A program made the translations under genes and the position numbers. Under the pieces are notes generated by a model that did no database searches, was not told the origin of the DNA, and was given only the letters and a program-made list of their open reading frames with translations. Below, piece after piece: positions 7,201-47,856 of a DNA stretch of 64,000 nucleotides. How positions within the stretch are numbered: the stretch's first letter is position 1; each line of letters begins with the position of its first letter. Source of the stretch: Volvox africanus (taxonomy: Eukaryota > Chlorophyta > Chlorophyceae > Chlamydomonadales > Volvocaceae); the NCBI GenBank assembly GCA_030268105.1, contig BSDZ01000078.1, forward strand, positions 5,565,001-5,629,000, read 5' to 3'.

Positions 7201-7839
7201 TGCACCTGCAGAGGGCATCTGGGGTGCTAAGCTACAAGCCAGGCGGGCCAGGCTGGACGGACTGGATATGATGCATGGCGACGTGATGGCGTCATGAATT
7301 CGACCCGATTCGTCGGGTGCGAGTTTACTCACCCTGCTACCGGGTTCAGTTCGTCTTGCGGACATCGGCCTGGACTCCAAGCCCCCTGGCCGAGCTGGCA
7401 TTCCGCATAACACTTATTCGAGTAGGTACTGTTGTCCTTGCCGCAAACGGGCAAGTACTCGAGCGTGCAAGGACTGCAGCTGTCTGTATTTCCCAGGCTG
7501 TCGCTGTTTTGGGAGCCTCCACCTGCACAATGATAACTCAGATTGCTCATTAAGTCGTAAGAAACGGGAAATCCAAAACAAACGAAGCGGGACGTCGGAC
7601 GATTCTTTTCTAAGACCTTTGCGTTGCCCAGAAAATTTAATATCACCATATCTAGAAGGCTGAAATAGACACAACTAGAGATCTGCGAGCGAGGTGATAA
7701 ACCTCGCTCGCCGAAAGGCTTTCAAACCGGAATAACCACCAGCCCAAATGCCATATTCGCAAAAGAAACGCCCATACCCACCTTGTGCAAGTGAACCTTC
7801 ATGAAGAAGTTGACATGCAGCAAGGAAAATGACAACCAT
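4212..7839 (-). CDS. Secreted multi-Kazal serine protease inhibitor (copy B)
   Basis: Exons in transcript order: 7839-7782, 7522-7333, 7205-6886, 6833-6602, 5876-5538, 5215-4931, 4491-4212. They total 1,704 nt (567 codons plus stop). The first intron is phase 1 and all others phase 2. Exon 1 is a neat signal peptide, [19 protein letters not shown]. Kazal cores follow: [74 protein letters not shown]. They alternate with a Cys-rich module of the type DPC..SCP..P.A.C....C....PC.A.YVD. The last exon is a separate Cys-rich domain ([24 protein letters not shown]) shared with copy A. Kazal domains block serine proteases with a rigid loop, and the product should be extracellular. A further exon with an in-frame stop (6371-6242) is left out of this model; see its own entry. 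Confidence 0.85.
6180..6371 (-). pseudogene. Nonsense-containing duplicate exon inside Kazal gene B
   Basis: After a TAG acceptor, an exon in the same phase as the later exon at 5215 reads [11 protein letters not shown], then CPGVPDAKC. It matches that exon almost word for word (CPGVPDAKC in both). At 6244-6242 it hits TGA, after which the frame goes on with a recognisable PACTAIW (paralogue: PACSAIW). No Kazal core follows. Joining 6602 directly to 5876 keeps frame, so the exon can be skipped without harm. It is either a decayed exon or a poison exon. Confidence 0.65.
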
Positions 7840-9832
7840 GCGCGCTCCTGAAAGATGACCGCCCACCATTAATGACCCGTAATGCATGCTCACCAAACAA
7901 CAAGGAAGCTTGCAAATAAGGATAGCGAATTTGGTAAGCGACTTTGAGCGGGGACTTTTGAGTCACACTGTATTGGACGACGTGACAACTAAGGAACGAA
8001 GCTCCTACTTTTCAGGAATAGGGAGGCGATATGTATGTGGTTTCAGCTGTTTCAGTATCCATTCCTGGCGAGATAATGGAAAAAACTTTATGCCAATTGT
8101 CACACAGTACGACATATGCAGCTGGGTAGCTTACGGCAAGCTAGGCTTATGAAGCTTCCAAACTACGGCGCTGCGATGTTGGAGGTAACCGATTACTGTA
8201 AGAGCCTACCGCGCGTTAAGCATAGTGAGGAAGGTGTGGAAGCTGCCCGCTGTCAACGTACTCGCGGACACAAATGAAGGAACTTGATGCACGCCGAACC
8301 CATTTAGGTCTTTTGATATGTGTTCATCGGATAAAGTGATAATGTAATGATGTCAGTATATTGCCGTGGCAAGACAGGGCAAGGGGTGTGCTTGGCAGGC
8401 GCGGTCTCACCAGGAGCATGAGCCGACACGAGCGAGCCTGAGAAAGTTTAAGACAATCTTACAGTTTGATGTACATCCATAATATTGTAAATCTTTTACT
8501 ATTTTAAAGTGTCAATGTATCAGGGTCAGCAAGAAAAGGAGTCGAGCTAACCACCGTGGATCGGAGAACCGGACAAGGAGTATCATTTTTTGTAAATCAG
8601 CGCCAAGCGCCCGCCTGCTTAGATTGTGCGCCCTAGGTTATTAACGCCCTCCGTTCTTACCCGTTTGTGCAACCTTTTCGCTGAAAATCATACCATATCA
8701 CGGGCGGGCGGAGAAGTTGCTATGAGTGACATTCGAGTGACCTTAAATAGTGGTCCCAGTTGCATGAAATCGTTGCATGGAAGCTGATTCCTTTGCATAA
8801 GGGCTGCATATAATCTTAACTTGGCACAACAAGATCAATTGAAAGCGGGAAAGAGTGACTTGCGCCCGTAGTGAGCCCGCCGTCAGCGCAGGGGACGACA
8901 CCAAAGTGAATACAATAAAATTAAGCATTTGCCTGCGAGAAGAATGAAAGTGACTGGCTCCCATGTATCTCAAACGAGCGTTTTGCCACGGCTGTCATCG
9001 GCGTGCGCACTGTTCGCGGGCGGGTAATGAAGCGGAAACGAAGGAGGATGCAAGCGATTACTACAAAATACAATGCGGGCGTTCTGGAGGGCATAGCAAA
9101 TACATATGTCATTATGGACCCAAGGTGTAAGACACATATGTAAGTACGAGAAAGTAGTCCCAAAAAAGAAGCTAAAGGAAGAAACATAATCGAAAACCAC
9201 GTGAGCAAAATACGCGCGCTTTAAATCAGTGAACCGCTATGGCATCGACTGGCACTCACGTCGCCCCAAGTCATCGTTATTTCCAAATCCTTATTTTACC
9301 CGCCTCTTCATCCCCTCCGCATGTACGTCCAGTCGATTTCATACCACACACAGTGCTTTGCGCGCCTCAGGTTGAAAAGTAGACATTCAAATAAATGCAT
9401 ATGAATTCGAGCACCACATCTAACATAGCAACAAAGCTGGCTTCGCGCAACCACCACCTGCTCCGGCCGGATACGTGCAACTATAACCCTGCCATATTCC
9501 CCCCACCAACAAGTGTCCGTCCTGTTTCGCTGTATGGATAATGTCGCAATCACCACGCGTGCCTTAATTACGTCTCAGCTATTGCAACTGCATGCATCAT
9601 ATTTCTATTGGCCCCACCCCTTATGCGTTTTCTTATCGGCTTGGTTTCTCTACATGGCGAACTCAACGCGCAGAACTTACTATGTCTCCTTCCAATAATT
9701 GAACTTTCAACCTGCGTTTCAGAAACCTTGACGATACAGACCCTCTAGCCGAAGACTGCCGCGCAGCAACCCCATTGAGCGGTGTGCATGGATACAAGTA
9801 TTCGAAGACATGCGTGCCCAGACCAAGTCCAC
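7840..9832. other. Intergenic, no recognisable gene
   Basis: This lies between the start of Kazal gene B and the 3' end of Kazal gene A and should hold the promoter of B. Open frames on both strands lack family motifs and usable splice partners. Nothing else was seen. Confidence 0.5.
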
Positions 9833-12420
9833 CTAAACCGCCAAACGACGACCAGCTTTGTGGGCGGGGGCGGATGGCGGGGGAACAGCAGGCCTCTGCT
9901 GGCACTTCCCTAGGAAGTCGCAATACTTGACGTCAGAAGCCGCCTTGCACTCATACTTGACATCCCAGCACTGCTGATTGCTAGGCACTGCTAATATGCA
10001 CAGATCATTCTTCTTTCCAATGATGCACTCCTCGCCATTGCAATGATTGCATTTTCCGATCTTTTTAATAGTGGCGCCCAAGCAGTCCGCAATGCACCTG
10101 GGGCCGGGCAGGGGACAGGGCATGAGACATCACGGCGAGAGAGAGTGACATGAAGAAAGTGAACGAGAGGACATCGCTCGCACAGCGCCATAGTGGAAAA
10201 CACTCGCTTCGGTACTTTCTTTATCTCCGGCGCTATCACTCGCCGATGAAGGTATAGGCACTCGGGCACACCGGCCAGCTGTTTAGGGACCGCAGCTGTG
10301 TTCGGATGCTTACTTGTTAGGATAGTTCTTATAATCGACGCCGCACACCGGCTGGTAGTCCGTTGGGCAGTCGGAGCAGGCAGGCGCTCCCGGCAATGAC
10401 GGGATCTTGGTGCAGCTGGCCGGGGGAGGCTTCCCAGTGCAGGGCGTCGGTGCATCAGGCGTATCGGGAACATCCGGGGAATCCGGGGGAGCGCTGGGCG
10501 GGTTGGTCGCTAAAGGATTCTGTGCACCGGAACTCTTCGGAGGCGGAGAAGCTGGAGACCTGCAGACGTGAGAATGAAACATGGCGTCAGCGGCCGGAAG
10601 TGGCATCCAAAATCAGTACCTTCACTCGCTTCTTTGTGTTGGAACTGGGAAATAGCATCGTAGCTCAAATAAAATCATTACAAAGCCGTCTTGACCATCT
10701 GGAACAAACTGTTGCTACACAAACGCAGGCGAAAAACATCGGCCACTCTACAGCCGATGCCACTTTGGACGCGGTCCCAACGCCCCACCACCTAACTGAA
10801 ACCTTGATCAATATTTTCGCAGAATGAAGGCGGACCAGGAGTACTCAGAAACGCAGTACTGGCAATTTCAAACGGCTGAAGGGTTCAGGTCAGTGCCAAA
10901 TAAGATCAACACAAGGCCCGGAGAGCTGTGCGACCACCTCACCGTACAGCCGCGCCGTTGCAGACCCCGGTGGATTGCACGGACACTCCACAGCAATATG
11001 CCTCGCAGGTGTTCCCGTAGGTTAAGCCGTCTGACCCGCATACTGGTCGATACTCTAGGGTGCAAATGCAGTCGGGGCGGCAAGAGGAGCAAGCATCATT
11101 ATAGGCGACCTGTACACCTCTGCACTTCGCCTCGCAGTCGTTTGTGTACGTCTGTCGATCAACTCCGCATACGGGGACATAGTCCGTAGAGCAGGTGCAT
11201 TTGTTGGAGAATTTCAGGTCGGTCTTTCGCACGAAGGGCGTTCCGTTCTGGGGTATCCACACCGCGCTGCAGGGATCAATCTGGGGGGACGAAGGGAAGG
11301 GGGCGGAAGGGAAGGGCAGGCGGACAAGCTAAGAGGGTGCAGCAATAGGAATTGGTCACGACCACAAACTTAACACAGGGTCTGGATACCAAAGGAGGGG
11401 AGGGAGGGAGCAGATCCGGACGGGGACTTGTCCCTGCGAGTCTTACACAGTGAAGCATAAAGCGCCGCGCGTTAGCCAGGAAAGTGTCCCACCGAAACTC
11501 CCACCAATGGATTTCATGGCGTACACATCGCAAAGATCCATTCCCCCTCTTTAACTATACGGAGATCAGGAGCATTTCCTGACGACCTTCTGGAGCTGTT
11601 GTCAACCTAGATACCAGCGGCACTGTGGCCGCTGGTTACAACACGAGCCATGCTCATTCAGTGACGATCCTCTAAACCAACTGTGACAGGGTTTTCAACC
11701 CATGAGGGGTGACAGGGCAACGGAGTAACTGAGCGAACTCGCCATGTGCGCAACCGGCTGTGGGTCCGAACTGACCGTTTGAGAAGTCTTGCTCCAGTGT
11801 TTCGCGTTCATGCAGCGCACGGATAGACAGGTTGAGGTCATGGCGTCAGCGAAGTCTTTGCTGGTCACAGCGCAGGGATCGCCCGAGCACGTAACTTCTG
11901 GATAGCACCTGTGGAAATGGAAAGAGGCAACTGAGTTACGTCGTTGTGCGAAAAAATCCACAGGTTTGGGGCCGCGGGGTTAAAGGCAGTAGAAAAAGAC
12001 TCCAAAGCTTCTAATAACCAGCATTTGCAATGCTAGGACAGGAAACGCTTAATGTAATAGCAGCAGCGCGGTGCTTGCGTGTCGGACCGTCAGATATTGG
12101 CAACCCAAGAATCCCCCAAGATTCCCTGAACCCCGTGCGGGCTTTACATCGCGGTGGGCCGCCAAGTGAACGTACCTATCGAAGGGGTTCTTATAATCGC
12201 ACGAGCCCAGCGTCCAAGTGTCCTTGCCAAGCAAAGTGCAGTTTGCTATGCAACTGTTTGGGTACGTCGTGAGATTCTTGCTGCTGCATACAGGATCATA
12301 AACTGCCGGGCAAGAGCAGTCTGAGGCGCCCAGGACAGCGCGACTGAGCAGACCTAAGAGAGCCGCAAGAAAATTTGGGTCAAGCCAAAATTCATCCATC
12401 AAAATCATCCATCCTTTCAT
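9833..12420 (-). CDS. Secreted multi-Kazal serine protease inhibitor (copy A)
   Basis: Exons in transcript order: 12420-12176, 11908-11776, 11280-10943, 10559-10314, 10097-9833. They sum to 1,227 nt (408 codons plus stop) with GT-AG borders. The N-terminus has a hydrophobic signal stretch ([16 protein letters not shown]) before the first Kazal core CPAVYDPVC. Further cores are [32 protein letters not shown] and [19 protein letters not shown]. The last is cut at PNK by an intron and finished in the next exon (CIADC). A Pro/Ser-rich linker (near [11 protein letters not shown]) precedes the last Kazal. The final exon encodes the same Cys-rich C-terminal domain as copy B ([20 protein letters not shown]). 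The loop [12 protein letters not shown] is nearly that of ovomucoid third domain, giving a predicted P1 leucine. The upstream ATG choice is uncertain. Confidence 0.85.
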
Positions 12421-18176: not shown

Positions 18177-19318
18177 TTTATCTGGCAGGCCAGCTGGACG
18201 TTTAACGATTGCCTAGCTTATACCCGCTTGTGAGATAGTTGGTGCGTCCCGTTTGGGCCGGATGTGGGAAGAGTTTGGCGACACTCTGGCCTGGCTTGGC
18301 CTCCCCGGCGTACTGTTGGCGTTCCGAGGAGGTTATTTTAGGCAGGATAGTGGCAGTGTTCGGGGGCTCCAGGTGATTGGATTCGGGATACGTGTCCAAT
18401 CAGTTCCGTATGCAGTCAATGCATCATGGCAAGGACTGGGGGTTGATGGCTCCGTAGGGCTTGCGCTTTGTGAACGCCTCCGCTCCTTCCTGGCTTCGTC
18501 GCTCGAAGGGGAGGCGGGGAGGCACGAAGTGTAATCAAGTATCGCGCTAGCGGGGCTTTTCATCAGGCCGTAGAGAGCTTTCTTTCCCTTTGTTCCGATC
18601 ATCTGGATGCATATCAGCGTATATAAGTAGATTGCAGGTCTTAGACGCAATTGCTGATGAGTGGCAATATACACTGTTTTCTCTACATGAAGGGTTTGTT
18701 TGGAATTTTGGATTTTGCTGATGCATGCTTTCAAGTCGCACTGCGTCACTCCTTTTACAGATGTCTTGCTTCATGCGTCTTAGTCTTTTCCTCGCTCGCT
18801 CAGCCCTGCTCAATCTTTTTTGAGGATCCGTGCGTGTGCTTTAGGGTCCCAGGAAGTTTAGGTTCTTTCTACTGCTGCCTGCTTGTTTCTGATCAACGAT
18901 GTATCTTGCTAAGAAAAACACCTTCCATTCAAGCGTTCCTCACAAATGCATGCGTGGAAGCACACACTGATGATTTGGAATCTCTAGGTGGTGGTCTTGC
19001 TTTTATCCCATGGTTGCGTGCAAGCCGGCCTGATCGCTCGGGCTCTCTGTGTACTCTCTTGCCCCTTCCGTCCCAGCATCATAGAACATCTTGCCCGTGC
19101 TTAACTTTTGTCCGTAAATGGCATTATACCGCCGGGAACAGAAGACAGATAGAAAGACTCAGACTTCATCATTTCCTTGCGAGAGGTAAACACACAGGGT
19201 GCCGCCAGACGCCAATCCACGCCTGCACGATGTATGCGCACCCATGCATTATGTCCTATGTATGATATGTGAAAAGTACAAATATGGGTTCAGAAGCATA
19301 AAAAAGAAACTTCTTTAT
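18177..19318. other. 3' flank of the Ala/Ser-rich gene, no further gene
   Basis: An open frame of 204 codons on the plus strand (18,651-19,265) is Cys/Phe-rich, without family resemblance or splice context. I regard it as UTR or noncoding. Nothing else is recognisable. Confidence 0.45.
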
Positions 19319-19321
19319 TTT

Positions 19322-19360
19322 TGGGTTTAGGGTTTTTAGGGTTTTAGGGTTTTAGGGTTA
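19322..19360 (+). repeat. Interstitial telomere-like repeats (left)
   Basis: About five units mixing TTTAGGG, TTTTTAGGG and TTTTAGGG. The G-rich strand runs left to right, the orientation expected if the DNA to the left once ended here as a chromosome end. TTTAGGG is the plant-type telomere repeat and TTTTAGGG the Chlamydomonas-type. Confidence 0.8.
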
Positions 19361-19364
19361 GTCC

Positions 19365-19454
19365 ATATATGGACTGGGACTTCTAATATAGTCCCAGTCC
19401 ATATATTATGTTGGGGACTATATTTTTTCTGCCTCCATATAGTCCCCAACATAA
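19365..19454. repeat. Two adjacent perfect 17 bp hairpins
   Basis: ATATATGGACTGGGACT (19365-19381) pairs with its exact complement at 19390-19406. TTATGTTGGGGACTATA (19406-19422) pairs with 19438-19454. The hairpins share a border base and follow the telomere-like block directly. The first arm also begins inside a 14 bp perfect palindrome at 19361-19374. Confidence 0.75.
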
Positions 19455-19585
19455 TCCAGATGAGTATTTAAACAACGATTATGCACAAGAAAATTAACAG
19501 GCGACCTGTGCCTTGAATGTTCTAAGCTCATATGGTTTTTTAGAACATTAACCCCAGTTACGGATAAGAGATTCTAGGTTTAGAG

Positions 19586-19675
19586 CTGTTCAGAGAGCTT
19601 TTAGAACAAGGAATTTTTATGGTCACGAGAGTGAAGAAAAATATGAAGAATAAGCTTATGTCCTTAATTGAATAG
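19586..19675 (+). pseudogene. IS982-family transposase fragment (bacterial)
   Basis: A 29-codon frame ending in TAG reads LFRELLEQGIFMVTRVKKN and then MKNKLMSLIE. This closely fits the IS982 transposase stretch of the type GVQLVTGIRKNMKNKLMPL. The sequence is AT-rich, unlike the host genes. Traces just upstream (GATAAGAGATTC, as in DKGY) are out of frame. It is a short, dead scrap of bacterial origin lying 32 bp outside the left CACTA element. Confidence 0.6.
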
Positions 19676-19707
19676 CCTCACTGCTAGAATGTTTTCTTCC
19701 TAGCACC

Positions 19708-19853
19708 CACTATAACAACAGATTCGTGCGTTAGGCTCGCGTTAGGCTGCGTTAGGGCGCGTATGTGTGCGTTTTGTGCGTTAGCGGTTGTGTTAGCCTA
19801 ACGCGAGCCTAACGCAAAGAAATAGAAAACTGGACAGAACGTCTGTTATAGTG
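19708..19853. repeat. 146 bp terminal block with its own inverted CACTATAAC ends
   Basis: The element's first 146 bp begin CACTATAACAACAG and end GTCTGTTATAGTG, an extra inverted copy of the tip. Inside are opposing GCCTAACGC and GCGTTAGGC repeats. The same block is at 29,768-29,923 in the other copy. It resembles a nested MITE or a duplicated terminus. Confidence 0.65.
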
Positions 19854-20100
19854 CGTCGTTTTCAAGTTTGTTTAAATGAAAACAATATTTATAATGAGTA
19901 TAAAAGTTCCCTGCAATTTTTATTACGTTTCGTGGTGCTCGAAAATCGGGGGCTTGCGTATGTTCTAACGCGAGCCTAACGCAAACCTAACGCACGCGAT
20001 CGCAAACCTAACGCACGCGTTAACTTTACGCAAACAGCTTGCGTATATCTTGCGTACAGTGCGTTACCATACGCACGTAACGCACTGTAACGCAGTTTAC
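19730..20100. repeat. 5' subterminal GCGTTAG/CTAACGC repeats of left CACTA
   Basis: Many direct and inverted copies of GCGTTAGG, GCCTAACGC and TAACGCA are present. In other CACTA elements, subterminal repeats bind the element-encoded TNPA-type protein; that role here is inference. Confidence 0.75.
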
Positions 20101-20907
20101 GTTTATGTAGATAGCGCATAATAATGTTCGGAGCACGGGTTCGCCGGATTTATTTAGTTTGCTTACTTGCTCTTATTGTGCAGTAGCATTGGAGACTTTG
20201 TGCATAAAATATCTTCAAAGTTAATTTCAATTTAGGATAGCGCTATGAATGCTAGTCGTTGTACAAGAGATTGCTCTGGTGAACGCTTGTTAACATCGCT
20301 AAATCGCTACCATTATATGGATTTAGAACCTGTACATGTGGCTTACTTTGTAACATAAAACTCTTAAGTGCCACACATGTCTCTTCATGGCTACCTTTCT
20401 AGTTATGGAAGGCTTTCTAATTATTGAGCAGCAAGCTGCCGGAGTTAGCAAGCGTGGGTAAGGATCGCGGAAAGTTGGCAACAGCAAACCTTACACAGTA
20501 GCCAGGCAACAATGTTGCCAGATGGAGACCCAAACAAAGTCACCAAGAGCCACAGTTACACATCGAGCAGGCCCCCAAAATTATATAGCCTTTTCCGGCA
20601 AGCACCATAGCAGCTTTGCGTAGGTGTGAAAATTGACCATGAAAATTGACCATGTGTGAGACGTACTCTATGACCCCAATGCTTCCCAAATCCAGACATA
20701 TTGCAAGGCAGATTAGTTCAATCGCTGCACGGGAATGAATACTTCAACGGATTCACGCCACAATTTTCAGCACGGTTATTATTTTGTCATCGCATAAAAA
20801 CGTAATGCACATTTTAAGGGGAAGGCTTGGAACCAGGCTCAGAAGAAACTAACTATCCATATATCCCTAAAACAGCCATCTGTTCAATTGGTATCCCCTG
20901 AAGTAAG

Positions 20908-23387
20908 CAGAATCAGTATACGAAAGGATCATGATCGTGGTGAGCCATCAAAGCGGAACAGGTCATATGAGCAGGCCGCCATCAACAAAGCCGTCCACGA
21001 CAACGTGCCGTACAACCTCGACAGCAGCCTGAAGAATCCACGGGTCCTCATTGCAAAGGATATTCAACGTGTGCCGCATCTGCAGCCCGTTTGGGATAAG
21101 TGCTTTGCTGCTGGCTTTGCACAAGTGGCTGACTTACAGCCAAGAGTTACGGTCGACTGCTTCAAGAAGAAATGGCAAAAGTACGTACATGTTTATTTTC
21201 CTACTGTTATGCTTCTAGTGATTATCTTGTTTGTGGTCATCATACATGCCATCCATATCATTAGCTTACTTTCAGTGGGGACAGACAACAATAGAATGAA
21301 GCATGCACAGTATAAAAAGTAAGCACTTTTATTTGGTGCATCCCATGTACTTTGTAGATATGCAACGGATTACAATGCCCAACATGCAAGGTACGAAAAG
21401 GTGAAGGCCACCCAAAAGGAGGAACTTGCCTGCAAGCCAGGTTTGTGAGCTCGTACTGCTACTTGTCATCCATATACTTTTTTACAACATATTTTGATCA
21501 GGTTGTTTGATAAAAAAATCCTTTCTATGTATTTTGAAAAATGGAATATGGGGTAAACGCGGGCCAAAGATTTGTTTTACGACAAAGGACATGCCATGCC
21601 GCTTACGCTATGTACGGGATTACGAAAACTTTCGACAATGATGTGTATCATGGCATCTGGCGTTGATGTTCGTCTTCACATTATTTTTATGTAGATGAGT
21701 TTGAGAAGAAGCCATGGAAGAAGCTGTGGAACAAGGAGTCTTGGGCAGCCTGGAGGAGCTTCAAGTACGCTCAGCCAGATAACCCAGATGCGGGTCCCAG
21801 TGAGCACCGCATTGTGATGGAGGATTTGAATGTGACAGATCGGCAACAGGAGCTTATTAATACACTTGTGCAGCGGAAGCAGATTGAAAGCAGTAAGACA
21901 TCCTTTGCCGTACCAGCCACTCCAGTGCCGGTTGGAGCTGGTGGAACAGCTCAGCATACACCAGGCCTTGGTGCACTGGAGTTGCCAAAAGGCACTAGGG
22001 TAAGATGCGATTATGCATGTGTTCACTTTAATTATTGCTGCTGCTTCGCCACCATAATAGTACGTACTTCTTAGTATGTTTGCAGAAAGTACATCACAGT
22101 TCATGCATAACCTTTTTTTTATTTTAGCTAGTACAACAATAACAATGTTTTCATGCCTTCATTTCCTTGTTTACAAAATGCTTAATTGCTACCAAACCGC
22201 AGAAAAGCGGCCGAAATGACGAGCCGCCAGGAACTCAGGATGGGCGCACTAGCAAACGCCAAAAGTAGCCCGCACATGGTGAAGATGCATTGATGATGGT
22301 GCTGGCTACCAATGCAGCTCGCATACATCAGAAGGAGGAGATCCAGGCCGCTAGACGCCGACAGGTTAGTCCAAATAATAGTGGTAAAGAGAGTGGTTGA
22401 TGGGGTGTGCAAATTTCCAGGCGCGCTTAGCAAGGTTATTGCAGGATGGGTGATGTACATTATGGATTGCATGTACAGGGATGTACAGGTCATTAATGTC
22501 CTTTAACCTGTTTTCTCCTTTTTGTCTTTTATGTAATTGTTCCTATTTTCCTCAAACATACTTCCTTTTCATGTAGGCAAAGAGTCCACAGCCCTCTAAG
22601 GCAAGGAACTCCAGCAGGAATGCTACGAACTCAAGCAAGGCGGCAGCGAAAAAGGTACAGCCCATTAATGAATATTCATCCTGTCTTCCCGTTTTAGTGA
22701 GTTGTAATTTTATGTTTCGTTCTATTCTTTTAATTTGCTGCGTGCTTTGTGGTTTGATGTGGTATACGTCGATTTGTTTTTCTCTTTTTAAAAAGAAAAT
22801 ATAAGCTTATCATTTCTAAAATCATATATGTATGTTAACGGTGGCCCTTGAAGGTAACAAACGACGGCGATGTGCGGCCATCCACGAAAGTGAGACGGAC
22901 AAGCACGGGCATCAAAAGAAAGGTACAATATATTGAGGCCCGGCATTAATTACTTTTTAATTATATTTGCTATCACTACCTAGTCCCTTCACGTATTTTG
23001 GACCAGCAGGTGCCGGTGGAAGACAAGTCTACGGACGGTGACGACAATAATGACAGTTACGACCACCGGCGAAAGAAGGTAAATTTCCTGAGTTCAGCTT
23101 GTTGTCTTAATTTCCTGCTTGTATGAATGTAATATTCTAATATGTGTTGTTTCGACTGATAAACGTCAAGAGTGCTATCGTAACCGAAAATGATTGCTGG
23201 GTCGTGTCGGCTTAATTTACCTTTATATATATGCATGTAAATAAGTATAATTTTCCTTTTCTGAACTTTTCAGGAGTTGTTTGAGGAGGAGGTGAGCAAG
23301 GACGAGAGGAGTGAGGACGAGCAGGATGATGCCACCAGTGCGCGAGAGGACGACGACAACGACGATAGTGAAATAGAAGACTATTAG
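20908..23387 (+). pseudogene. Split gene carried by left CACTA (TNPA-like accessory candidate), one nonsense codon
   Basis: Exons: about 20908-21180, 21358-21440, 21695-21999, 22203-22364, 22577-22654, 22854-22922, 23007-23078, 23274-23387. All are GT-AG and in frame. The first exon's start is uncertain and no initiator was found. Recognisable stretches are basic/aromatic: VDCFKKKWQKYATDYNAQHA and KKPWKKLWNKESWAAWRSF. A basic middle (AARRRQAKS, STGIKRK) and a strongly acidic end (EDDDNDDSEIEDY) follow. No catalytic domain was recognised. By position in a CACTA element it may be a DNA-binding accessory protein, but that is inference. At 22266-22268 TAG interrupts the frame; the inverted copy has CAG there. 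Translation resumes sensibly after it, so this copy looks recently dead. Confidence 0.65.
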
Positions 23388-23869
23388 ATAGAACTAACAT
23401 CTATCATGTTTGTTTCTAAGCTTATATTAGAGCGGGCTGCTAAATGTTCGGTGGCAGATGAAGTTAGGATGTATGTACCTAATGATGATTGAAATGATTG
23501 GTGCATGGTACAAATGATTATTTAACTCATAAACAAAATTTGATTGGCAGGATTGGATGTGTAGAAATTTGATTGTTTCGTTGAATTAATGGGTAGTCAC
23601 TCACCAATGGCTGCTTACCTGGATGCTTTCCGAATAATGAGCTGTAAATTATTTCCTGGAATATTTTCATCTATCAAAACTGAAATCCTATTGATATTCT
23701 TCATAACAGCTACGTACATTACGACAGGATAGTATCCGTACACAAAAAATAATTCTGCAGCGGGTTGGCAAAACAGCAAACAATAACAGGAACGATAACT
23801 GAAACAGTAAAGAAATAACCAGAACGACCAAAAGTAGTTAAGAGAGCAAGAATGCGAGGCTGCCTCGTA

Positions 23870-24437
23870 CGCAAAGCGAAAGTGGCGCGAATGTTGCTAT
23901 CGCACGCGTAAGACCTTGCGAAAGCATGCGAATATGTTAGTTACATGCGTATAAAACTTTTACGCAACCCACAACTGCTAGCTGTGTACACATTATTCGC
24001 AGCATACGCAAGCATGCGTTAATGCGCGTTAATGCGCGTTAGGCGTGCGTATATTGTGCGTTAGAGAACTTTAAGTGCGTTAACTTCCATGCACGCTATG
24101 TATTTTTGCTTGCGTATGGGTCTCTAACGCTTGCGTTGCGTTAGGCCTAACGCACACCTTAGAATCTATGTGGGTGGGTTTGACATTGCGTAAGTTCACG
24201 TTAGGTTGCGTTAGCTAACGCAAAGTAAACGCAAACATTTTCGTTCCCTCCCAAAAAAGTTTATTTGCGATTGCGTTAGGTGCGTTAGGATTGCGTTAGC
24301 GATACGCAAGCAATAACGCAATGCGTTTGATTTGCGTTAGGCTTTGCGTTAGCTCGCGTTAGTTCGCGTTAAGCTTGCGTTAGGCTTGCGTTAGGGGTCC
24401 CTAACGCGAGCCTAACGCGAGCTAACGCACGAATTCC
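23870..24437. repeat. 3' subterminal GCGTTAG repeats of left CACTA
   Basis: More than twenty GCGTTAG/CTAACGC motifs appear in both orientations. They are densest at 24,260-24,437 and mirrored at 25,620-26,160 in the other copy. Confidence 0.8.
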
Positions 24438-24451
24438 TTGTTATAGTGACC

Positions 24452-24540
24452 GATAAATCTTTTTCATCAAATGTTTGTATGCCCAGGGAAACTCTATTAA
24501 TTCCGGCTGATTTAAATTGCTTGAATTTATCTGTTTCAAG
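24452..24540 (-). pseudogene. hemW: hemW-like radical SAM fragment (bacterial)
   Basis: The minus-strand frame reads LETDKFKQFKSAGINRVSLG and then IQTFDEKDL. This is the conserved stretch of HemW (formerly HemN-like coproporphyrinogen oxidase family) of the type KF..F..AGINRLSLGIQSF. Only about 29 codons survive. It is cut on one side by the CACTA insertion and on the other joined directly to a folC scrap. Confidence 0.65.
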
Positions 24541-24633
24541 TAAATGAGGGAAAGTATAGGAATGAACTTTGTAACCGGCTGTTTCAAATATGCTTTTTAA
24601 TATAACAACGGTAGACCCTTTACCGTTTGACAA
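24541..24633 (-). pseudogene. folC: folC-like folylpolyglutamate synthase fragment (bacterial)
   Basis: The minus-strand frame reads SNGKGSTVVILKSIFETAGY, then KVHSYTFPHL. This is the FolC P-loop (TNGKGST) and following helix with the SPHL motif (here FPHL). About 31 codons remain. It runs in frame, without stop, into the hemW scrap, though these are unrelated genes. Confidence 0.7.
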
Positions 24634-24651
24634 TGTATACGGTACAAAATG

Positions 24652-24801
24652 ATCGGTTGGTCTGCTATGGCAACAAGAGTGGCCTCTGATGCTTCAAAAT
24701 TATATGCAAGAAATTTATATAATTTCCTTGAGCATGCCGTAAAAGATGGAAAATTAGATTTTTCCAATGACATTGTCGAAGAAATGAGGGTTACTAAATA
24801 A
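24652..24801 (+). pseudogene. pntA: pntA-like transhydrogenase alpha subunit C-terminal fragment (bacterial)
   Basis: The plus frame reads ATRVASDASKLYARNLYNFL, then EHAVKDGKLDFSNDIVEEM, and ends in TAA at 24799-24801. The ASKLYA.NL.NFL...VKDGKL...DDEIV pattern is the C-terminal end of PntA (NAD(P) transhydrogenase alpha-1). It is AT-rich, has no start and carries no bacterial promoter context. Confidence 0.55.
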
Positions 24802-24964
24802 ATTACCCCTAAGGACCATGTACTGATAAAAAAATCTGCAAGGAGTTGGTTGTGGACGAGCCGTAAGATTCACGGATAAAATTTTAGAATATTTAAAAGC
24901 TTATCCCGATGCAAGCGGTATTGAGGTAAGAGATGCCATAGCTCCAAACAGGGGTTTTCCTTTT
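24802..24964 (+). other. Unassigned AT-rich bacterial-like scrap
   Basis: A plus frame reads TDKILEYLKAYPDASGIEV, reminiscent of the N-terminal helix-turn-helix of IS630/ISL3-type transposases, but too short to assign. Confidence 0.3.
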
Positions 24965-25080
24965 TAAAGAATAGCTTTGTAATACTTGGCACTCTTGTTT
25001 TATCCCCACTTCATCGCACCAATGTATTTCTGCCTTTTCATATTCTGCTTGCTCGGCTATTGATAGATATTCCTCATCTA
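24965..25080 (-). pseudogene. IS630-family transposase fragment (bacterial)
   Basis: The minus frame reads EKAEIHWCDEVGIKQECQ and then SYSLK. The motif AEI.W.DE.G ... SY..KG is the second catalytic aspartate region of IS630/Tc1-type transposases. Only about 38 codons are present. Confidence 0.55.
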
Positions 25081-25190
25081 ATATATTTAACAGGATTTAT
25101 ATTATTAAGTTTTGCTGTTTCAATTAAGGTATAGAAGATGGCCGCAGTATTGCCGCCTTTATCAGAACCAGCAAAAACCTCAAACGAGCA
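25081..25190 (-). pseudogene. IS66-family transposase C-terminal fragment (bacterial)
   Basis: The minus frame reads FEVFAGSDKGGNTAAIFYTL, then IETAKLNNINPVKYI. The GS..GG..AA..Y.LIETAKLN..P..Y pattern is the well-conserved IS66 transposase C-terminus. It abuts the IS630 scrap. Confidence 0.65.
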
Positions 25191-25236
25191 TTAATTGAGT
25201 CAGTCTTCAGTAAAATCTTGAGTCAATCAAATTGCT

Positions 25237-25310
25237 AGGAAGCATAAAAACGTTGATGATGAAGCTTACGGCGGAGGTAACGGCCTCATATTGAGACCGG
25301 ATGTTATTTA
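25237..25310 (+). pseudogene. trmD: trmD-like tRNA (guanine-37) methyltransferase fragment (bacterial)
   Basis: The plus frame reads [20 protein letters not shown], then PDVIYL. VDD..YGGG.GM..(R/K)PD is the signature of TrmD. About 24 codons remain, with no upstream or downstream continuation. Confidence 0.65.
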
Positions 25311-25330
25311 CCTTTCGGTAATCTCTTTTT

Positions 25331-25405
25331 GGCAGCGTAGCTAAATTGGAAGAGCACTGACGTTTCAATCCGGAGGAATGAGTTCGAACCCCATCGCTGT
25401 CACCA
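25331..25405 (+). tRNA. Degenerate tRNA-like sequence with encoded CCA
   Basis: GGCAGCG (25331) pairs over 7 bp, with one G-U, with CGCTGTC (25395-25401), followed by A and CCA. A D-arm (GCT..AGC) and a T-arm with TTCGAAC are present, the latter with one A-C mismatch. The anticodon stem is poor (two or more mismatches); the loop GTTTCAA would give UUC. Encoded CCA is a bacterial trait, so this is probably a transferred and decayed tRNA. Confidence 0.45.
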
Positions 25406-25606
25406 CGGGTTGTTCGAGACTTTCAGCAACCAGTGGGGAATGTGGTGACTAGCCCGTCACCTGAAGGCTAGGAGGGGACGAACAAGGCCCCTCTGGAACT
25501 AGACAAGAAATTGATCTGAGGCTTCTACTTAAAAGCATGGCTAGGCCGAACCTCGCACAAGCCTTAGATGTCTACGAGGGGTGCAGAATTCCCCAGCGGG
25601 TGAAGC
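25406..25606. other. Unassigned segment between tRNA-like sequence and right CACTA
   Basis: This is GC-richer than the bacterial scraps. It has several short self-complementary stretches (GAATTCCCC..., GACTAGCCCGTCACC...AAGGCTAGG) but no coding frame. Origin is unknown; it could be structured RNA sequence or host DNA. Confidence 0.35.
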
Positions 25607-25619
25607 GGGCACTATAACA

Positions 25620-26160
25620 AGGAATTCGTGCGTTAGCTCGTGTTAGGCTCGCGTTAGGGACCCCTAACGGGAGCCTAACGCAAGCTTAACGCGAACTAAC
25701 GCGAGCTAACGCAAAGCCTAACACAAATCAAACGCATGGCGTTATTGTTTGCGTATCGCTAACGCAATCCTAACGCACCTAACGCAATCGCAAATAAACT
25801 TTTTTGGGAGGGAACGAAAATGTTTGCGTTTACTTTGCGTTAGCTAACGCAACCTAACGCGAACTTACGCAATGTCAAACGCACCCACATAGATTCTAAG
25901 GTGTGCGTTAGGCCTAACGCAACGCAAGCGTTAGAGACCCATACGCAAGCAAAAATACATAGCGTGCATGGAAGTTAACGCACTTAAAGTTCTCTAATGC
26001 ACAATACACGCACGCCTAACACGCATTAACGCGCATTAACACATGCTTGCGTATGCTGCGAATAATGCGTACACAGCTAGCAGTTGTGGGTTGCGTAAAA
26101 GTTTTAAACGCATGTAACTAACATATTCGCACGCTTTCGCAAGATCTTACGCGTGCGATA
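25620..26160. repeat. Subterminal CTAACGC repeats, inner end of right CACTA
   Basis: This is a mirror image of 23,870-24,437 with scattered substitutions, packed with CTAACGC/GCGTTAG in both orientations. Confidence 0.8.
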
Positions 26161-26670
26161 GCAACATTCGTGCCACTTTCGCTTTGTGTACGAGGCAGCC
26201 TCGCATTCTTGCTCACTGTAACTACTTTTGGTCATTCTGGTTATTTCTTTACTGTTTCAGTTATCGTTCCTGTTCTTGTTTGCTATTTTGCCCACCCGCT
26301 GCAGAATTATTTTTGTGTGTACGGAAACTATCCTGTCGTAATGTACGTAGCTGTTATGAAGAATATCAATAGGATTTCAGTTTTGATAGATGAAAATATT
26401 CCAGGAAATAATTTACAGCTCAATATTTGGAAAGCATCCAGGTAAGCAGCTATTGGTGAGTGACTACCCATTAATTCAACGAAACAATCAAATTTCTACA
26501 CATCCAATCCTGCCAGTCAAATTTTGTTTATTAGTTAAATAATCATTTGTACCATGCACCAATCATTTCAATCATCATTTGGTACATACATCCTAACTTC
26601 ATCTGCCACCGCACATTTAGCAGCCCGCTCTAATATAAGCTTAGAAACAAACATGTTAGATGTTAGTTCT

Positions 26671-27997
26671 ATCTAATAGTCTTCTATTTCACTCTCTCTG
26701 TTGTCGTCCTCCTCTGGCACACTGGTGGCGTCATCCTGCTCATCCTCAATCTTCTCATCACCTCCTCAAGCAACTCCTGAAAAGTTTAGAAAAGGAAAAT
26801 TATACTTATTTACATGCGTATGTATAAATGTAAATTAAGCTGTCACCACTCAGCAATTATCACTTCCGGTTACAAGAATCTTAATCATGTTTAGGGTGGG
26901 CAGTGCTTTTAAGTACCACTAATCATTCTAAAAGCAGAGTCTTTCATTTGCTGTAATATGTACTTGTTACCTGTTTCTGCTAACTCCCTGAGCTCTCACG
27001 TTGACCTAGTGCCCGTGTACATCGCACACCTTCCGAAACACTCTTGACCTTTATCAGTCGAAACAACACATATTATAATTATACACTCAAACATGAAGGA
27101 AATTTAGATAATAAGCTGAACTAAGGAAATTACCTTCTGTCCCTGGTGGTCGTAACTGTCATTGTCATCCGTAGACTTGTCTTCCAACGGCACCTGCTGG
27201 TCCAATATACGTGAAGGGACTTGGTAGTAATAAAAAGGTTATACTAAAAAGTAAGTAATGTCTGGCCTCAATATTTCGTACCTTCCTTTTGGTGCCCGTG
27301 CTTGGTTGCCTCACTTCCGTGGATGGCCGCACATCGTCATCGTTCGTTACCTTCAAGGGCCGACGTTAGCATACATATATGATTTGAGAAATTACAAGCT
27401 TACAATTTCTATCAAAAAAGAGAAAAATAAATCGACATATGGCACATTAAACGACAAAGCACACAGCAAATGAAAAGAATATAACGAAACATGAAATTAC
27501 AGCTCAATAAAACAGGAAGACAGGATGAATGGGCTGTACCTCTTTTGCTGCCGCCTTGCTTGAGTTCCTAGCTATCCTGCTGGAGTTCCTTGTCGTAGAG
27601 GGCTGTGAACTCTTTGCCTACATAAAAGGAAGTACGTCTGGGGAGAAAAGGAACAATTACATTAAAGACAGAAAGGAGAAAACAGGTTAGAGGACATTAA
27701 TGATCTGTACATCCCTGTATATGAGATCCGTAATGTACATCACCCATCCAGCAATAATTTTGTGAAGCGCGCCTGGTAATTTGCACACCCCATCATCCAC
27801 TCTCCGTACTACTAGTATTTGCACTAACCTGTCAGCGTCTAGCGGCCTTGACCTCCTTCTCCTTCTGATGTATGCTAGCTGCATTGGCAGCCAGCACCAT
27901 CATCGATGCATCTTCACCATGCGCGGGCTGCTTTTGGCCTTTGCTAGGGCGCCCATTATGAGTTCCTAATGGCTCGTCATTTCAGCCGTTTTTCTGC
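26671..27997 (-). pseudogene. Remnant of the CACTA-carried gene (exons 4-8), right copy
   Basis: The counterpart of 22203-23387 on the minus strand. Recognisable pieces include QPAHGEDASMMVLAANAA, TNDDDVRPSTEVRQPS and GTKRK. It is dead in its own way. TGA replaces a CGA arginine near the start of exon 4 (27,985 area), a second TGA replaces CGA at the end of that exon (27,834 area), and small deletions shift the acidic last exon (26,690-26,780). The left copy's TAG site is CAG (Gln) here. Confidence 0.6.
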
Positions 27998-28089
27998 GGG
28001 TTGGTGGCAATAAAGTATTTCATACACGACAAAAATAAAAGCATGAAAAAATATTATTCTTTTACTAGTTAAAGTAAAAAACAAATGTT

Positions 28090-28810
28090 ATGCATACGTA
28101 CTACTTAAAAGCGAAGAGTAGTGCTTCCGTACTCCGTCCAGGGTTGTGCGGCTGCCAATCAATCCCATGTAAGCAACAATGTTTCGTAACCCTGCTTTAC
28201 AACATCCTTTATATGTACATTTAATGCCACCCATTGTACACAGTCGTCAGGTCGTCCATGTCATACGGTAGCAGTTCTTTTGGACAACCTTGCTTGCGCA
28301 GGCAGCATACGTATAATTTCTGCAGCATCAACAGCTAATCATATATTTGTAAAGAAATAATAATTGCTTCAGTAACGAATGGAGCCGCCTTCTGCTTATG
28401 ATGGAAAGTCCCCTATACATGAAACTCTTTACGTCCCGAAAACACTTTTTCCCTGAAAGTCAGGAACATTTTCAGTGTGTCATGCCTGGAAGGGAGCCAC
28501 TAGAAGGCAACATTGCATTGGATCTGCTAGATGGCATCGACCAAGGCAGCAGCCGCTTGGCTCAAAGCTTGGCTCTTCCTGGTTTTAGTAGCAATGAGAA
28601 GTGACTTCATTGTGACGAGGATGTTTAGAATCACCATTGCAACGTTTGTACTTGAGATGCCCCGTCTATGTGCCCCGTCTTGGGAGCCAGGGCCAGCGGG
28701 ATGGGATGGAAGGCTAGGGTTCTGGGCAGCCCTCAGTACAGCGCCGTCATCAGGTTAGGCACGTGCTTGGAGTTTCTGGAGCCATGAAACAATTTTGGTT
28801 AGGAATGTGC
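28090..28810. other. Replacement segment unique to right CACTA
   Basis: Outside this stretch the two CACTA copies align, but here the right copy lacks homology to 20,810-22,090 of the left. It holds a 68-codon plus-strand frame (28,398-28,604, with GNIALDLLDGIDQGSS) opposite to the carried gene. No function was recognised. Confidence 0.45.
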
Positions 28811-29499
28811 ATGACGTTTTTGATGCGATGACAAAATAATGACCGTGCTGAAAATTGTGGCGTGAATCCGTTGAACTATTTATTCCCGTGCAGCGATTGA
28901 ACTATTCTGCATTGCAATATGTCTGGATTGGGGAAGCATTGGGGTCATAGGGTACCTCTCACACATGCTCGTTTTCATGGTCAATTTTCACACATACGCC
29001 AAGCTGCTATGATGCTTGCCGGAAAAGGCTATCTAATTTTTGGGGCCTGCTCGATGTGTAACTGTGGCTCTTGGTGACTTTGTTTGGGTCTCCATCTGGC
29101 AACATTGTTGCCTGGCTACTGTGTAAGGTTTGCTGTTGCCAAATTTCCTCGGTCCTTACCCAGACTTGCTAACTCCGGCAGCTTGCTGCTCAATAATTAG
29201 AAAGCCTTCCATAATTAGAAAGGTAGCCATGAAGAGACATGTGTGGCACTTAAGAGTTCTATGTTATAAAGTAAGCCACATGTACAGGTTCTAAATCCGT
29301 ATAATGGTAGCAATTTAGCGATGTTAACAAGCGTTCACCAGAGCAATCTCTTGTACAACGACTAGTATTCATAGCGCTATCGTAAATTGAAATTAACTTT
29401 GAAGATATTTTATGCACAAAGTCTCGAGACTACTGCACTATAAGAGCAAGTAAGCAGACTAAATAAATCCGGCAAACCCGTGCTCCGAACATTATTATG

Positions 29500-29905
29500 C
29501 ACTATCTACATAAACTTTGCGTAAACTGCGTTACAGTGCGTTATGTGCGTATGGTAACGCACTGTACGCAAGATATACGCAAGCTGTTTGCGTAAAGTTA
29601 ACGCGTGCGTTAGGTTTGCGATCGCGTGTGTTAGGTTTGCGTTAGGCTCGCGTTAGAACATACGCAAGCCCCCGATTTTCGAGCACCATGAAACGTGATA
29701 AAAATTACAGGGAACTTTTATAATCATTATAAATATTGTTTTCATTTAAACGAACTTGAAAACGACGCACTATAACAGACGTTCTGTCCAGTTTTCTAAT
29801 TCTTTGCGTTAGGCTCGCGTTAGGCTAACGCAACCTCTAACGCACAAAACGCAGCCTTACGCACACATACGCGCCCTAACGCAGCCTAACGCGAGCCTAA
29901 CGCAC
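29500..29905. repeat. Subterminal repeats, outer end of right CACTA
   Basis: Inverted counterpart of 19,730-20,100, with GCGTTAGG/CCTAACGC repeats and the terminal 29,768-29,923 mini-block. Confidence 0.75.
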
Positions 29906-29926
29906 GAATCTGTTGTTACAGTGGGG

Positions 29927-30280
29927 TCGTAGGGGGCTGAGTACCCTTCACCAGGACAAAGTACCATGTGGTGGTAGATAACGTGACATGGGCGGTGCAG
30001 ATTTCAGGGGGCCAGGTATACACAGGAGCACCCGAATCTGGCAAGATGCAAGAACGGGTCGTGTCCCACAGCGAGAGTGTGGCGTGTGGCCTAGCGATAA
30101 TAGGTTCAACGTTGGTCGAAGAAGATGGACGATCAACCGGGATAGCGGTGGAGATATGGAGTATAGGGAGTCCGTGAGTGTAGTACCTCCTCGGTGCCGT
30201 CTCCCCCTTAACACACGCCAGGCTTCGGCCAGGAGTAATGAAATAATAAAAATAATCTCTTTTCAAGGTCTGCAAGAACA
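29927..30280. other. Unassigned segment right of CACTA-R
   Basis: Both strands carry open frames of about 100 codons (for instance minus, ending near 29,916), with no family motif. This DNA follows the GGG target duplication and precedes the right telomere-like block. Nothing firm can be said. Confidence 0.35.
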
Positions 30281-30309
30281 TTAGGGTTTATGGGTTTAGG
30301 GTTTAGGGA
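30281..30309 (+). repeat. Interstitial telomere-like repeats (right)
   Basis: TTAGGG, TTTATGGG, TTTAGGG, TTTAGGG: about four units, one degenerate, in the same orientation as the left block at 19,322. Confidence 0.7.
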
Positions 30310-30889
30310 TTATGCCTCTAACTCCACCACCATCAATAGCAATAATTTTAATCAAAGGCTTTTGTGGAACCTTGGGATTAGTACACAAAGTATTTTCTTG
30401 AGCAAATACGGTACTAATAATATCCACAGAAGGACAACAGAGAGCTTTCCTAGTAGGGGAATGGGTGAACTAACGGACGAATGAATCAGTAGGACAGGCT
30501 AGAACCACCCACCACGCAATTGAAGTTAAATCCAAAGCACTGCGGCCCACTGGCCCACTTAAAATCCGGTACCTGACAAATCCTGGACATGGCAACTCGG
30601 CAGCAATAGCAGCACCTCATTCCCACAGCCCAACTAGCAATCATTAGTCAGATAAGGGTTCCGAAACAACCTTAGCCACATGCCCACAATAATGCACGAC
30701 TTCTGATTCGTCTTTCCTATAATCAGCTGAACACAACGGGAATATGCATTAAAAAGCCCTTCCCCACCCGTCAATATCACGCATCACCACATATTGGTAG
30801 CAGGCGCCCCCCCCCCGAACCTTCATTGGTTGTTGTCTTCCACCCCAGACGTTTCTATTCGCACTTTAGCGCCACTGCCGGGTTCCCCT
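30310..30889. other. No recognisable gene
   Basis: AT-rich sequence without motifs; a short C-run is at 30,806-30,816. Confidence 0.45.
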
Positions 30890-42917: not shown

Positions 42918-43307
42918 GCATTACTGCAGAACGGCAGACATTTGGCTATCACCTAGTTCACGTCACAGCTCGTTTCCACATTTCCTACTTTGGACGACGT
43001 CAGCCATCACCCGACGTTCACGGTTAGTCCTCGATCCCTAAGAATCAGCACCAGGTTTCGTTTTATTCGACTTCCCCCCTCCCCACGACCCCCACCTCCA
43101 AAAGGCGCTATAGTAACCCTGGCCCAGCCTCTGTGTCATGCATCCGACAGGTACTAAGCTAATTCGTGAAAAGATCAACAAGTCGGCACGTTGTAGCCGC
43201 ATCGAACCCGGAGTGCTGCAGTTCTTTTTCACTTGCATACCCTCGCCACCACGTGCACCCGAGTCCGTGTGCTCAGACCGCCGCCCGGGGACTCTGTGCC
43301 GACTGAC

Positions 43308-44927: not shown

Positions 44928-45027
44928 GTTGTGATGAAACAGGCCCTTTGGTGCGGGTTTCGGAGGCTCAGTCGAACCGAGTCTTCAATTTCAAGGCTTA
45001 CACAGGCCTTGTGTAAATGTGACATGG

Positions 45028-46652: not shown

Positions 46653-47856
46653 GGCTGGAGAACTTCTCCAGCTGAACATCATGGTACAGGGGAGCGACCT
46701 GCACACCGCGGACGTTAAGATCACGGATTTCGGTGAGCGGATGTGTTCTCCTGCGGGTGCGCTTCAGCAACACGGCAGGGGCATACCTGTTGCTTCGTCT
46801 TTCCTTTGGTGAACACTCGCCGCCGGATAGAATTCCACCGGACCGACGCGGACCTGCGCTTGTGGCGCCAGGTCTCATGGCGGTGGTGCAGCCGCGGGAT
46901 CGGGGACTACACGGCCGACTCCTCCGGAAGGCGGACTTGAATTTCCCTCGACTCAACCGGAGCGCCTTTGGCCGCGTGTTATCAATCAAGAAACAGTGAG
47001 GAGGGGCTGGGGAGGGAGAGATGTGCGTATATGTGGGTTATAGTGGCATAGGAGGGAGGGGCGCGCGCTACACTCGGGGGGTTAAGGGCGGGTGACGGAA
47101 GGAAAGCAAACCCATGCCGTCCTCATGCTTGTTATATATTTCCGTACCGCCGTCCATGCTGTACAGGTCCCAGACCATCCAAGAGATGTGGAGCCAATCG
47201 TATTGCCTGGCGTTGACCAAGCGCTGGAGGGTCAGCCCGTCACCCCAGCAGCTGTTGGGACGTACGGGCAGCTACATGTACTTGTGAGGTGGGGGGTCGC
47301 GGTCAGTTATGTGGGTTCAACAAACCCCAAACCCTAAGAGCCAACACTAAGATATCTGATTCTTGTTCACTAGTGGCCGCTCCCGTTCCTTTTGATATTG
47401 CTTTCATCTGTGTTCTCCAGAAAACACACACGCGCACACGCACACGCACGCACACCCTTAAACTCACCTCCCCTGACACACAACACAAATACACGCGCGC
47501 GAGTATGCAGGGCCCCAGAGATGTACCGGGATCAGCCGTACAACGAAAAGCTGGACGAATTTAGCTATGGCGTCATTGTATTTGAGGTCAGTCGGCACAG
47601 AGTCCCCGGGCGGCGGTCTGAGCACACGGACTCGGGTGCACGTGGTGGCGAGGGTATGCAAGTGAAAAAGAACTGCAGCACTCCGGGTTCGATGCGGCTA
47701 CAACGTGCCGACTTGTTGATCTTTTCACGAATTAGCTTAGTACCTGTCGGATGCATGACACAGAGGCTGGGCCAGGGTTACTATAGCGCCTTTTGGAGGT
47801 GGGGGTCGTGGGGAGGGGGGAAGTCGAATAAAACGAAACCTGGTGCTGATTCTTAG
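46652..47856 (+). pseudogene. Protein kinase C-lobe module X, copy 4
   Basis: Inverted partner of 43,038-44,233 and mirror of 37,855-39,056. It starts at the CTGGAGAA-C-TTCTCCAG junction next to module Y and carries the DVKITDF, RTGSYMYL and APEMYRDQPY pieces without the HRD exon. Confidence 0.8.

Follow-up and report, generated by a model that had tools for sequence, protein, structure and literature searches.

A stretch of 64,000 nucleotides of contig BSDZ01000078.1 (the window) contains a mosaic of bacterial DNA that, once later host insertions are removed, is a chain of about 1.4 kb made of pieces of 39 to 141 bp of the Candidatus Megaira type (Rickettsiaceae), bacteria of a lineage found within algal cells. 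It is highly probable that symbiont DNA, largely in small pieces by then, was inserted at many chromosomal breaks by end joining. Judging from the host assembly (141 Mb in 126 contigs), the chain is joined to the host chromosome: it sits on a contig of 7.5 Mb (C75) and has a host short interspersed element (SINE) and host transposons nested inside it.

A chain of short Megaira-type pieces

The whole window was compared with Megaira DNA by blastn. Twelve rows fell within 19272-25308 and one at 10662-10716, and none was obtained from 10 Markov-resampled windows, 40 resampled mosaic-sized sequences, or the reversed window. The pieces (39 to 141 bp, with hemW counted whole) occur in both orientations, are all incomplete, share 86 to 100% identity with Megaira-type DNA, and tile with little space between them. 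The donor open reading frames (ORFs) beneath them were named with NCBIfam profiles; all seven ORFs tested gave a family, namely IS982, HemW, FolC, PntA, TrmD, IS630, and IS66, with the PntA ORF falling under the curated cut-offs (371 of 383 bits).

A previous reading of the window made from its letters alone (the sequence-only reading) had described at least eight unrelated, incomplete bacterial pieces in mixed orientation. Short incomplete pieces facing both ways are present, and seven of its eight names agree with the NCBIfam families of the donor ORFs. The eighth, a CCA-bearing tRNA taken as a bacterial scrap, does not stand, as 25331-25405 is the head of a host SINE. Neither do the scraps lie end to end across 19586-25405, as had been proposed: 19708-24448 is a host transposon, with a second copy at 25610-29923. 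The mosaic also reaches outside that span, starting near 19272 and probably resuming beyond 30263 (Table 1).

Table 1. Features of the mosaic and its surroundings, with positions in the window. G numbers denote genomes compared.
Feature	Positions	Strand	Remarks
Lone Megaira scrap	10662-10716	+	98% over 55 bp to G023; ~9 kb left of mosaic
Megaira IS630 piece, part 1	19272-19322	+	86% DNA identity, 51 bp; shares 10 bp of donor sequence with part 2
Telomere-like repeats (TTTAGGG/TTTTAGGG) and palindromic stretch	19323-19417		Inside IS630 piece; read directly; donor DNA continuous across
Megaira IS630 piece, part 2 (LPPYSPQHNPDEYLNND)	19418-19480	+	90% DNA identity; NCBIfam NF033545 on donor ORF
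Dispersed Megaira-type repeat	19481-19551		44 bp at 100% to several G001 places; 71 bp at 86% in G002
IS982 piece 1	19582-19671	+	88-90% to multiple G002 copies; NF033520 on donor ORF
hemW piece, half left of TE-A	19671-19707	-	100% over 37 bp; includes one ACC copy
TE-A, host CACTA-like transposon within hemW piece	19708-24448		Ends CACTATAACAA/TTGTTATAGTG; flanked by an ACC duplication
hemW piece, half right of TE-A	24449-24539	-	91%; 24449-24451 is the second ACC; frame continues across empty site
folC piece	24536-24629	-	94% to G002 and G023
pntA piece	24646-24786	+	91% to G001, 88% to G002 and G023
58-bp piece recurring in host mosaics	24780-24837		In 9 of 27 other host loci examined
109-bp piece recurring in host mosaics	24838-24946		77% to Rickettsiaceae genome G075; in 10 of 27 loci
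IS630 piece	24947-25081	-	93% to Ca. Megaera plasmid p1
IS66 piece	25083-25177	-	98% DNA identity to G023; NF033517 on donor ORF
IS982 piece 2	25179-25217	+	90%; 13 bp from IS982 piece 1 in G002
trmD piece	25240-25308	+	90% G002, 86% G001, 87% G023; TrmD family on donor ORF
Host SINE, tRNA-Glu-like head, part left of TE-B	25331-25609	+	tRNA-like 25331-25405; dispersed in host
TE-B, second, inverted copy of TE-A family, inside SINE	25610-29923		Flanked by a GGG duplication
Host SINE, part right of TE-B	29927-30263	+	Ends in target duplication TAATCTCTTTT
Telomere-like repeats	30281-30315		Second array in mosaic
Patatin-like piece (IKIIAIDGGGVRGII), lead only	30314-30430	-	Motif read directly

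Identity of the donor

By sequence comparison, the donor is Candidatus Megaira or close kin. In a panel of 85 Rickettsiaceae genomes (4 candidates scored per genome), 66 had some match, the strongest being G001 (uncultured Rickettsiales), G002 (Megaira MegNEIS296), and G023, which differs from G002 by 2.3% over 2.35 kb of coding sequence. The hemW, folC, pntA, and IS66 pieces were found at 88 to 98% in these three (hemW up to 94%), whereas the other Rickettsiaceae scored at most 83% on the same four, barring sub-stretches of 32 to 40 bp at up to 89%. Two pieces discriminate poorly, namely trmD, at 86% in several other Rickettsiaceae versus 86 to 90% in the three, and IS982 piece 1, of which a 65-bp sub-stretch matches another Rickettsiaceae genome, G052, at 89%.

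Comparison of an 882-bp stretch of the mosaic with 72,556 plasmid records gave two matches, both to Ca. Megaera polyxenophila and both over the IS630 piece. The IS66 protein shares 91% identity with one encoded on a plasmid of Ca. Megaera polyxenophila; among the best 5000 records, the one that follows reaches 69%. For the pntA protein, 25 loci were obtained, of which the top three, all from Rickettsiales, are at 84, 80, and 73% and the remaining 22 at 59% or less, including a contig titled Rickettsia typhi at 41%. The best matches are thus not scattered over unrelated bacteria, and the Rickettsiales source given in the sequence-only reading is confirmed and narrowed.

Host elements nested in the chain

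When the flanks of TE-A are joined, the hemW reading frame is restored across the site (...LGIQTFDEKDLSVLGRKHSSSEAI). A 609-bp stretch of TE-A matches at least 39 other host places at 97 to 100% (40 of 289 candidates scored), and therefore the element looks young. TE-B aligns with TE-A in three blocks: two, of 1.1 to 1.3 kb, are 94% identical, and the third, of 1.1 kb, is 85% identical. Both ends of TE-A carry CACTA; TE-B has CACTA at one end and CACTG at the other (CACTGTAACAA). The target duplications are of 3 bp for TE-A (ACC) and TE-B (GGG) and of 11 bp for the SINE. We take TE-A and TE-B to be of the CACTA type, assuming that CACTA ends and a 3-bp target duplication define this family; the single ORF of TE-A tested for a CACTA transposase (20888-21322) had no Pfam match.

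With TE-B removed, about 0.6 kb of the SINE aligns across the TE-B site in all seven copies compared, at 82 to 88%. Used as a query, 24440-25610 gave at least 39 other host matches at 73 to 90% (40 of 95 candidates scored), all from query position 882 onward and most of them covering the tRNA-like head. This head (25331-25405) had no match in the Megaira DNA compared and leads a dispersed host SINE, and a bacterial tRNA scrap was rejected.

The order of events can be read from this nesting. The bacterial chain came first, the SINE and TE-A then entered it, in either order, and TE-B then entered the SINE. The chain is older than both transposons because the TE-A duplication lies within the hemW piece and that of TE-B within the SINE.

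Spread across the host genome

The mosaic used as a query also matches other host loci. We surveyed 28 host sequences, the window mosaic and 27 loci, against the G023 chromosome and two Ca. Megaera plasmids; the 27 loci were picked for sharing scraps with the window mosaic and so are not a random sample. At least one Megaira piece was found in 22 of the 28 and none in 6, or 21 and 7 without a single row at 60% in one locus (L091). The 95 pieces, a few of them weak, have a median of 83 bp, and other chains hold 10 (L079), 11 (L093), and 9 (L097) pieces.

Two neighboring pieces of the mosaic also recur in these loci. The 58-bp piece (24780-24837) has a Megaira piece within 500 bp in 6 of its 9 loci (5 of 9 without the 60% row in L091), and was matched neither in the Rickettsiaceae genomes, as far as these were searched, nor in the Megaira DNA compared. 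The 109-bp piece (24838-24946) has Megaira pieces within 500 bp in 7 of its 10 loci, and was unmatched in the 72,556 plasmid records and in the Megaira DNA compared. Both are probably mobile elements of an unsequenced donor.

A census of the host genome was taken with two arbitrary 20-kb chunks of Megaira chromosome and one Megaira stretch of 6.15 kb. The chunks gave at least 46 and at least 47 matches (best 40 of 58 and 40 of 68 candidates scored), of which at least 38 and at least 46 are at 80% identity or more, and the 6.15-kb stretch gave 19 (18 of 18 candidates scored). The same neighborhood as the 6.15-kb stretch in a related Rickettsiaceae genome (titled Rickettsia sp. bin_208), used as a control, gave 3 matches, which coincide with Megaira-matched places at lower identity (81, 85, and 78% versus 88, 96, and 90%). 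In the second chunk, 36 of the 47 matches fall in 4.3 to 6.7 kb of it, evidently a multicopy element. Extrapolated from matches at 80% or more to a donor of 1.45 to 2.0 Mb, these counts amount to about 2,750 to 6,200 pieces, 0.3 to 0.8 Mb, or 0.2 to 0.6% of the host genome, a rough estimate, as the chunks are about 3% of the donor and only the best candidates were scored in two of the three queries.

Thirty-three contigs carry the 103 matches at 80% or more; among matches to the two chromosome chunks, the longest is 2.74 kb. Eighteen pairs lie within 5 kb of each other, against 0.37 expected, and the members of nine of these pairs derive from separate chunks or from positions in a single chunk that are over 3 kb apart. 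On contig C36, at about 43,000-51,000 (locus L074), a Megaira segment of 2.74 kb lies close to another of at least 2.66 kb that stems from a different donor region, an island of pieces far longer than those in the window. Local duplication after insertion is suggested by contig C26, where, at 1,637,593-1,666,717, one Megaira stretch has four matches (two of 788 bp, one of 915 bp, and one of 132 bp) within 30 kb. Recurrent cutting at fixed sites was considered and rejected: in the parts recognizable as Megaira DNA, shared scrap ends arise because the query pieces end there, and other loci carry longer pieces, one of them at least 2,663 bp around hemW.

How and when the pieces were joined

At 34 junctions the mean overlap was 1.1 bp, compared with 1.6 bp for 559 blunt joins that were simulated from mutated Megaira pieces and read in the same way (Mann-Whitney, p = 0.87; the overlap limit of 15 bp excluded one pair with an overlap of 33 bp). 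No microhomology beyond chance was found at these 34 junctions, in a comparison of low power, and microhomology-driven joining was rejected. This is the pattern expected of classical end joining, given junctions without an excess of microhomology. In addition, single-copy pieces that share a locus mostly stem from distant parts of the donor: of 119 such pairs, 101 are separated there by more than 100 kb.

The age of the scraps was assessed from six coding pieces compared with G023 or plasmid p1; the IS982 pieces and both halves of the left IS630 piece are excluded from the count. The 52 substitutions are distributed 10/5/37 over codon positions 1/2/3, without a stop codon, and the third-position share is 0.71, compared with 0.64 to 0.67 between living genomes. 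For the C36 insert of at least 2.66 kb, which carries a 35-bp deletion, this share is 0.64. Because the third-position bias is like that between living genomes, most of the divergence arose in the donor lineage while it was living, with little added after insertion. The mosaic holds no complete gene, yet shows almost no decay. The distant donor sites, the blunt-looking joins, and this lack of decay lend indirect support to the sequence-only reading, in which the DNA had been shredded before or during insertion and joined end to end; that reading was essentially right and understated the scale, as scraps occur genome-wide at many loci.

A volvocalean host is indicated by a Chlamydomonas RuBisCO small-subunit query, which matched six gene copies at 89 to 91% over the main exon and 66 to 88% over the smaller ones, together with the telomere-type repeats at several contig ends. 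A green alga, probably volvocalean, or its ancestor would once have hosted an endosymbiont of the Candidatus Megaira type. Its DNA, presumably released by dying symbionts, would have reached the nucleus, much of it cut to about 50 to 150 bp before joining, and the end-joining machinery of the host would have linked unrelated pieces into chains at chromosomal breaks. The same process would have acted at many loci, the window holding one chain and one lone scrap. The host insertions came later: the SINE landed in the chain, a CACTA-like element split the hemW piece, and another copy of this element landed in the SINE.

Several observations count against this account. Piece edges are fuzzy by a few bases, and the junction test, with 34 junctions, has little power and includes some weak pieces, of identity as low as 60%. 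Single-copy pairs from within 5 kb number 4 versus 1.6 in shuffles, a weak excess that was reached in 144 of 2000. IS630 and IS982 each contribute two pieces to this mosaic, and in G023 a distance of 3.7 kb separates folC from trmD, which weakly suggests that larger molecules were fragmented locally. The long pieces on C36 (2.74 kb and at least 2.66 kb) indicate that some DNA arrived unshredded, and the host-private changes there (18/18/47, a third-position share of 0.57) indicate some decay after insertion. Finally, no sequenced Megaira is the exact donor.

Some of these observations would also suit the insertion of one or a few long Megaira segments that were then scrambled in the host by deletion, inversion, and transposition, namely the kilobase-long pieces on C36, the proximity of folC and trmD in G023, and the IS982 pieces lying 13 bp apart in G002. 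We consider this unlikely: the freshness of the scraps argues against slow scrambling, leaving little time for a gradual process, and the 101 of 119 same-locus pairs come from donor sites too distant (more than 100 kb) to fit it easily.

A chain that already existed in the donor, for example on a plasmid riddled with insertion sequences (IS), and that moved as one segment is very improbable. The two Ca. Megaera plasmids do hold many IS genes and fragments, but the pieces are far apart in each genome listed, except those of one IS element, and other host loci have differently composed chains drawn from all over the chromosome. Slightly less probable still is the capture of bacterial pieces by host transposons that brought them here. 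Transposons are known to capture foreign pieces, and two copies of one family flank and split the chain; both are nevertheless later than the chain, by the position of their target duplications, and neither matched the Megaira DNA compared. Least probable of all is an assembly chimera or contamination, for although the chain is known from an assembly and the window also has a near-perfect 21-kb palindrome, of a kind that assemblers can create, the contig that carries the chain is 7.5 Mb long, host elements with their own target duplications break the chain up, and scraps are spread over 33 contigs, with no match to the two chunks longer than 2.74 kb.

Other features of the window

Telomere-like repeats occur twice in the bacterial mosaic, at 19322-19361, where they split the IS630 piece, and at 30281-30315; telomere-type repeats are also found at several host contig ends. 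Such repeats as a general filler of joins were rejected: an array was present in only 1 (L077) of 28 other scrap-selected loci (27 distinct), about 0.9 kb from its Megaira piece, and in none of 7 SINE loci scanned. The telomere repeats in the mosaic are a local oddity.

The lone scrap (10662-10716) falls within a 154-aa mechanical ORF (10363-10827) and shares its reading with a donor ORF, which we take to resemble a YbgF/CpoB protein. For the patatin-like piece (30314-30430), there was no Pfam match and no match in the Megaira DNA compared; one Rickettsiaceae genome overlaps it by 34 bp at 88%, and plasmid matches are only at E 0.6 to 0.8. Its patatin identity was not confirmed. At 4927-12420, several minus-strand ORFs resemble by eye Kazal-type inhibitor repeats, possibly a host gene array; for one Kazal-type ORF of the window a single relative was found, which carries PF07648/PF00050.

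A palindrome at 32180-53582 has arms of 7.5 kb (35246-42791/42917-50462) and 3.2 kb with 100% complementarity around a center of 125 nucleotides, and copies spaced by 927 bp occur at 52.6 to 56.6 kb. The palindrome is either real or a fold-back of the assembly.

Relation to known insertions and implications

In Volvox carteri, about 9 kb holds rickettsial 16S (412 bp), murB (768 bp), an interrupted ddlB, and ftsQ (75 bp), broken up by host repeats and a Jordan transposon (Kawafune and others, PMC4324946), and the Volvox inserts have been cited as partial Megaira inserts (Davison and others, PMC9098888). As in the present mosaic, the host is volvocalean (for the present mosaic, probably so), the donor is rickettsial (of the hydra group), truncated genes stand side by side, and host repeats interrupted them later. 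Unlike that single locus of four genes, the pieces described here are of 39 to 141 bp and matches are found genome-wide. The MurB_C profile had no match in this genome, though the murB piece of Volvox carteri keeps its 3' end (PMC4324946); the alga is thus unlikely to be of that species or strain.

In nematode nuclei, Wolbachia fragments have mean lengths of 159 to 174 bp and 78 to 81% identity (PMC2882956, 2010), and nearly 1 Mb of Wolbachia-like DNA carries inactivating mutations (PMC4046930, 2014). There too, DNA of obligate intracellular Rickettsiales is scattered in short pieces; those are more diverged or inactivated, and chains of unrelated scraps are not described in the available text. 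With its multiple pieces from different donor places and in different orientations, the mosaic is like the complex nuclear insertions of mitochondrial and plastid DNA (numts and nupts), in which several fragments from different donor locations and orientations, with blunt or short-microhomology joins, are regarded as having been concatenated either before their capture in breaks or in the course of it (PMC6215612). It differs from these in that the donor is an endosymbiont rather than an organelle, and the example fragments given there are much longer. The available part of a paper on insertional mutagenesis in Chlamydomonas (PMC5376698) has nothing on filler DNA. Among the records listed in a literature search that did not extend to most subscription papers or to any preprints, none described Megaira scraps spread through the genome of an alga, or chains of such scraps.

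Events of this kind are already known; what is new is how small, how fresh, and how numerous the pieces are. In old, decayed insertions it is hard to tell whether DNA entered as long segments or as degraded scraps. Here fresh scraps, a sequenced donor group, and many loci make it possible to measure how long the pieces are, how they are joined, which parts of the donor they sample, and where they inserted. The finding would extend the Volvox carteri case from one 9-kb locus to genome-wide seeding in a probable relative, and would show that short AT-rich symbiont scraps can form a measurable share of an algal genome. Tentatively, and with somewhat less than even confidence, we suggest that this genome may be a fossil record of repeated symbiont death, in which Megaira DNA was routinely degraded to about 50 to 150 bp and ligated in chains at thousands of places, so that fragments, not long segments, would be the main currency of transfer. 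If this is true, the transfer rate from a facultative endosymbiont would be comparable with that from organelle to nucleus, and the distribution of piece sizes would report on the nuclease that cuts the DNA.

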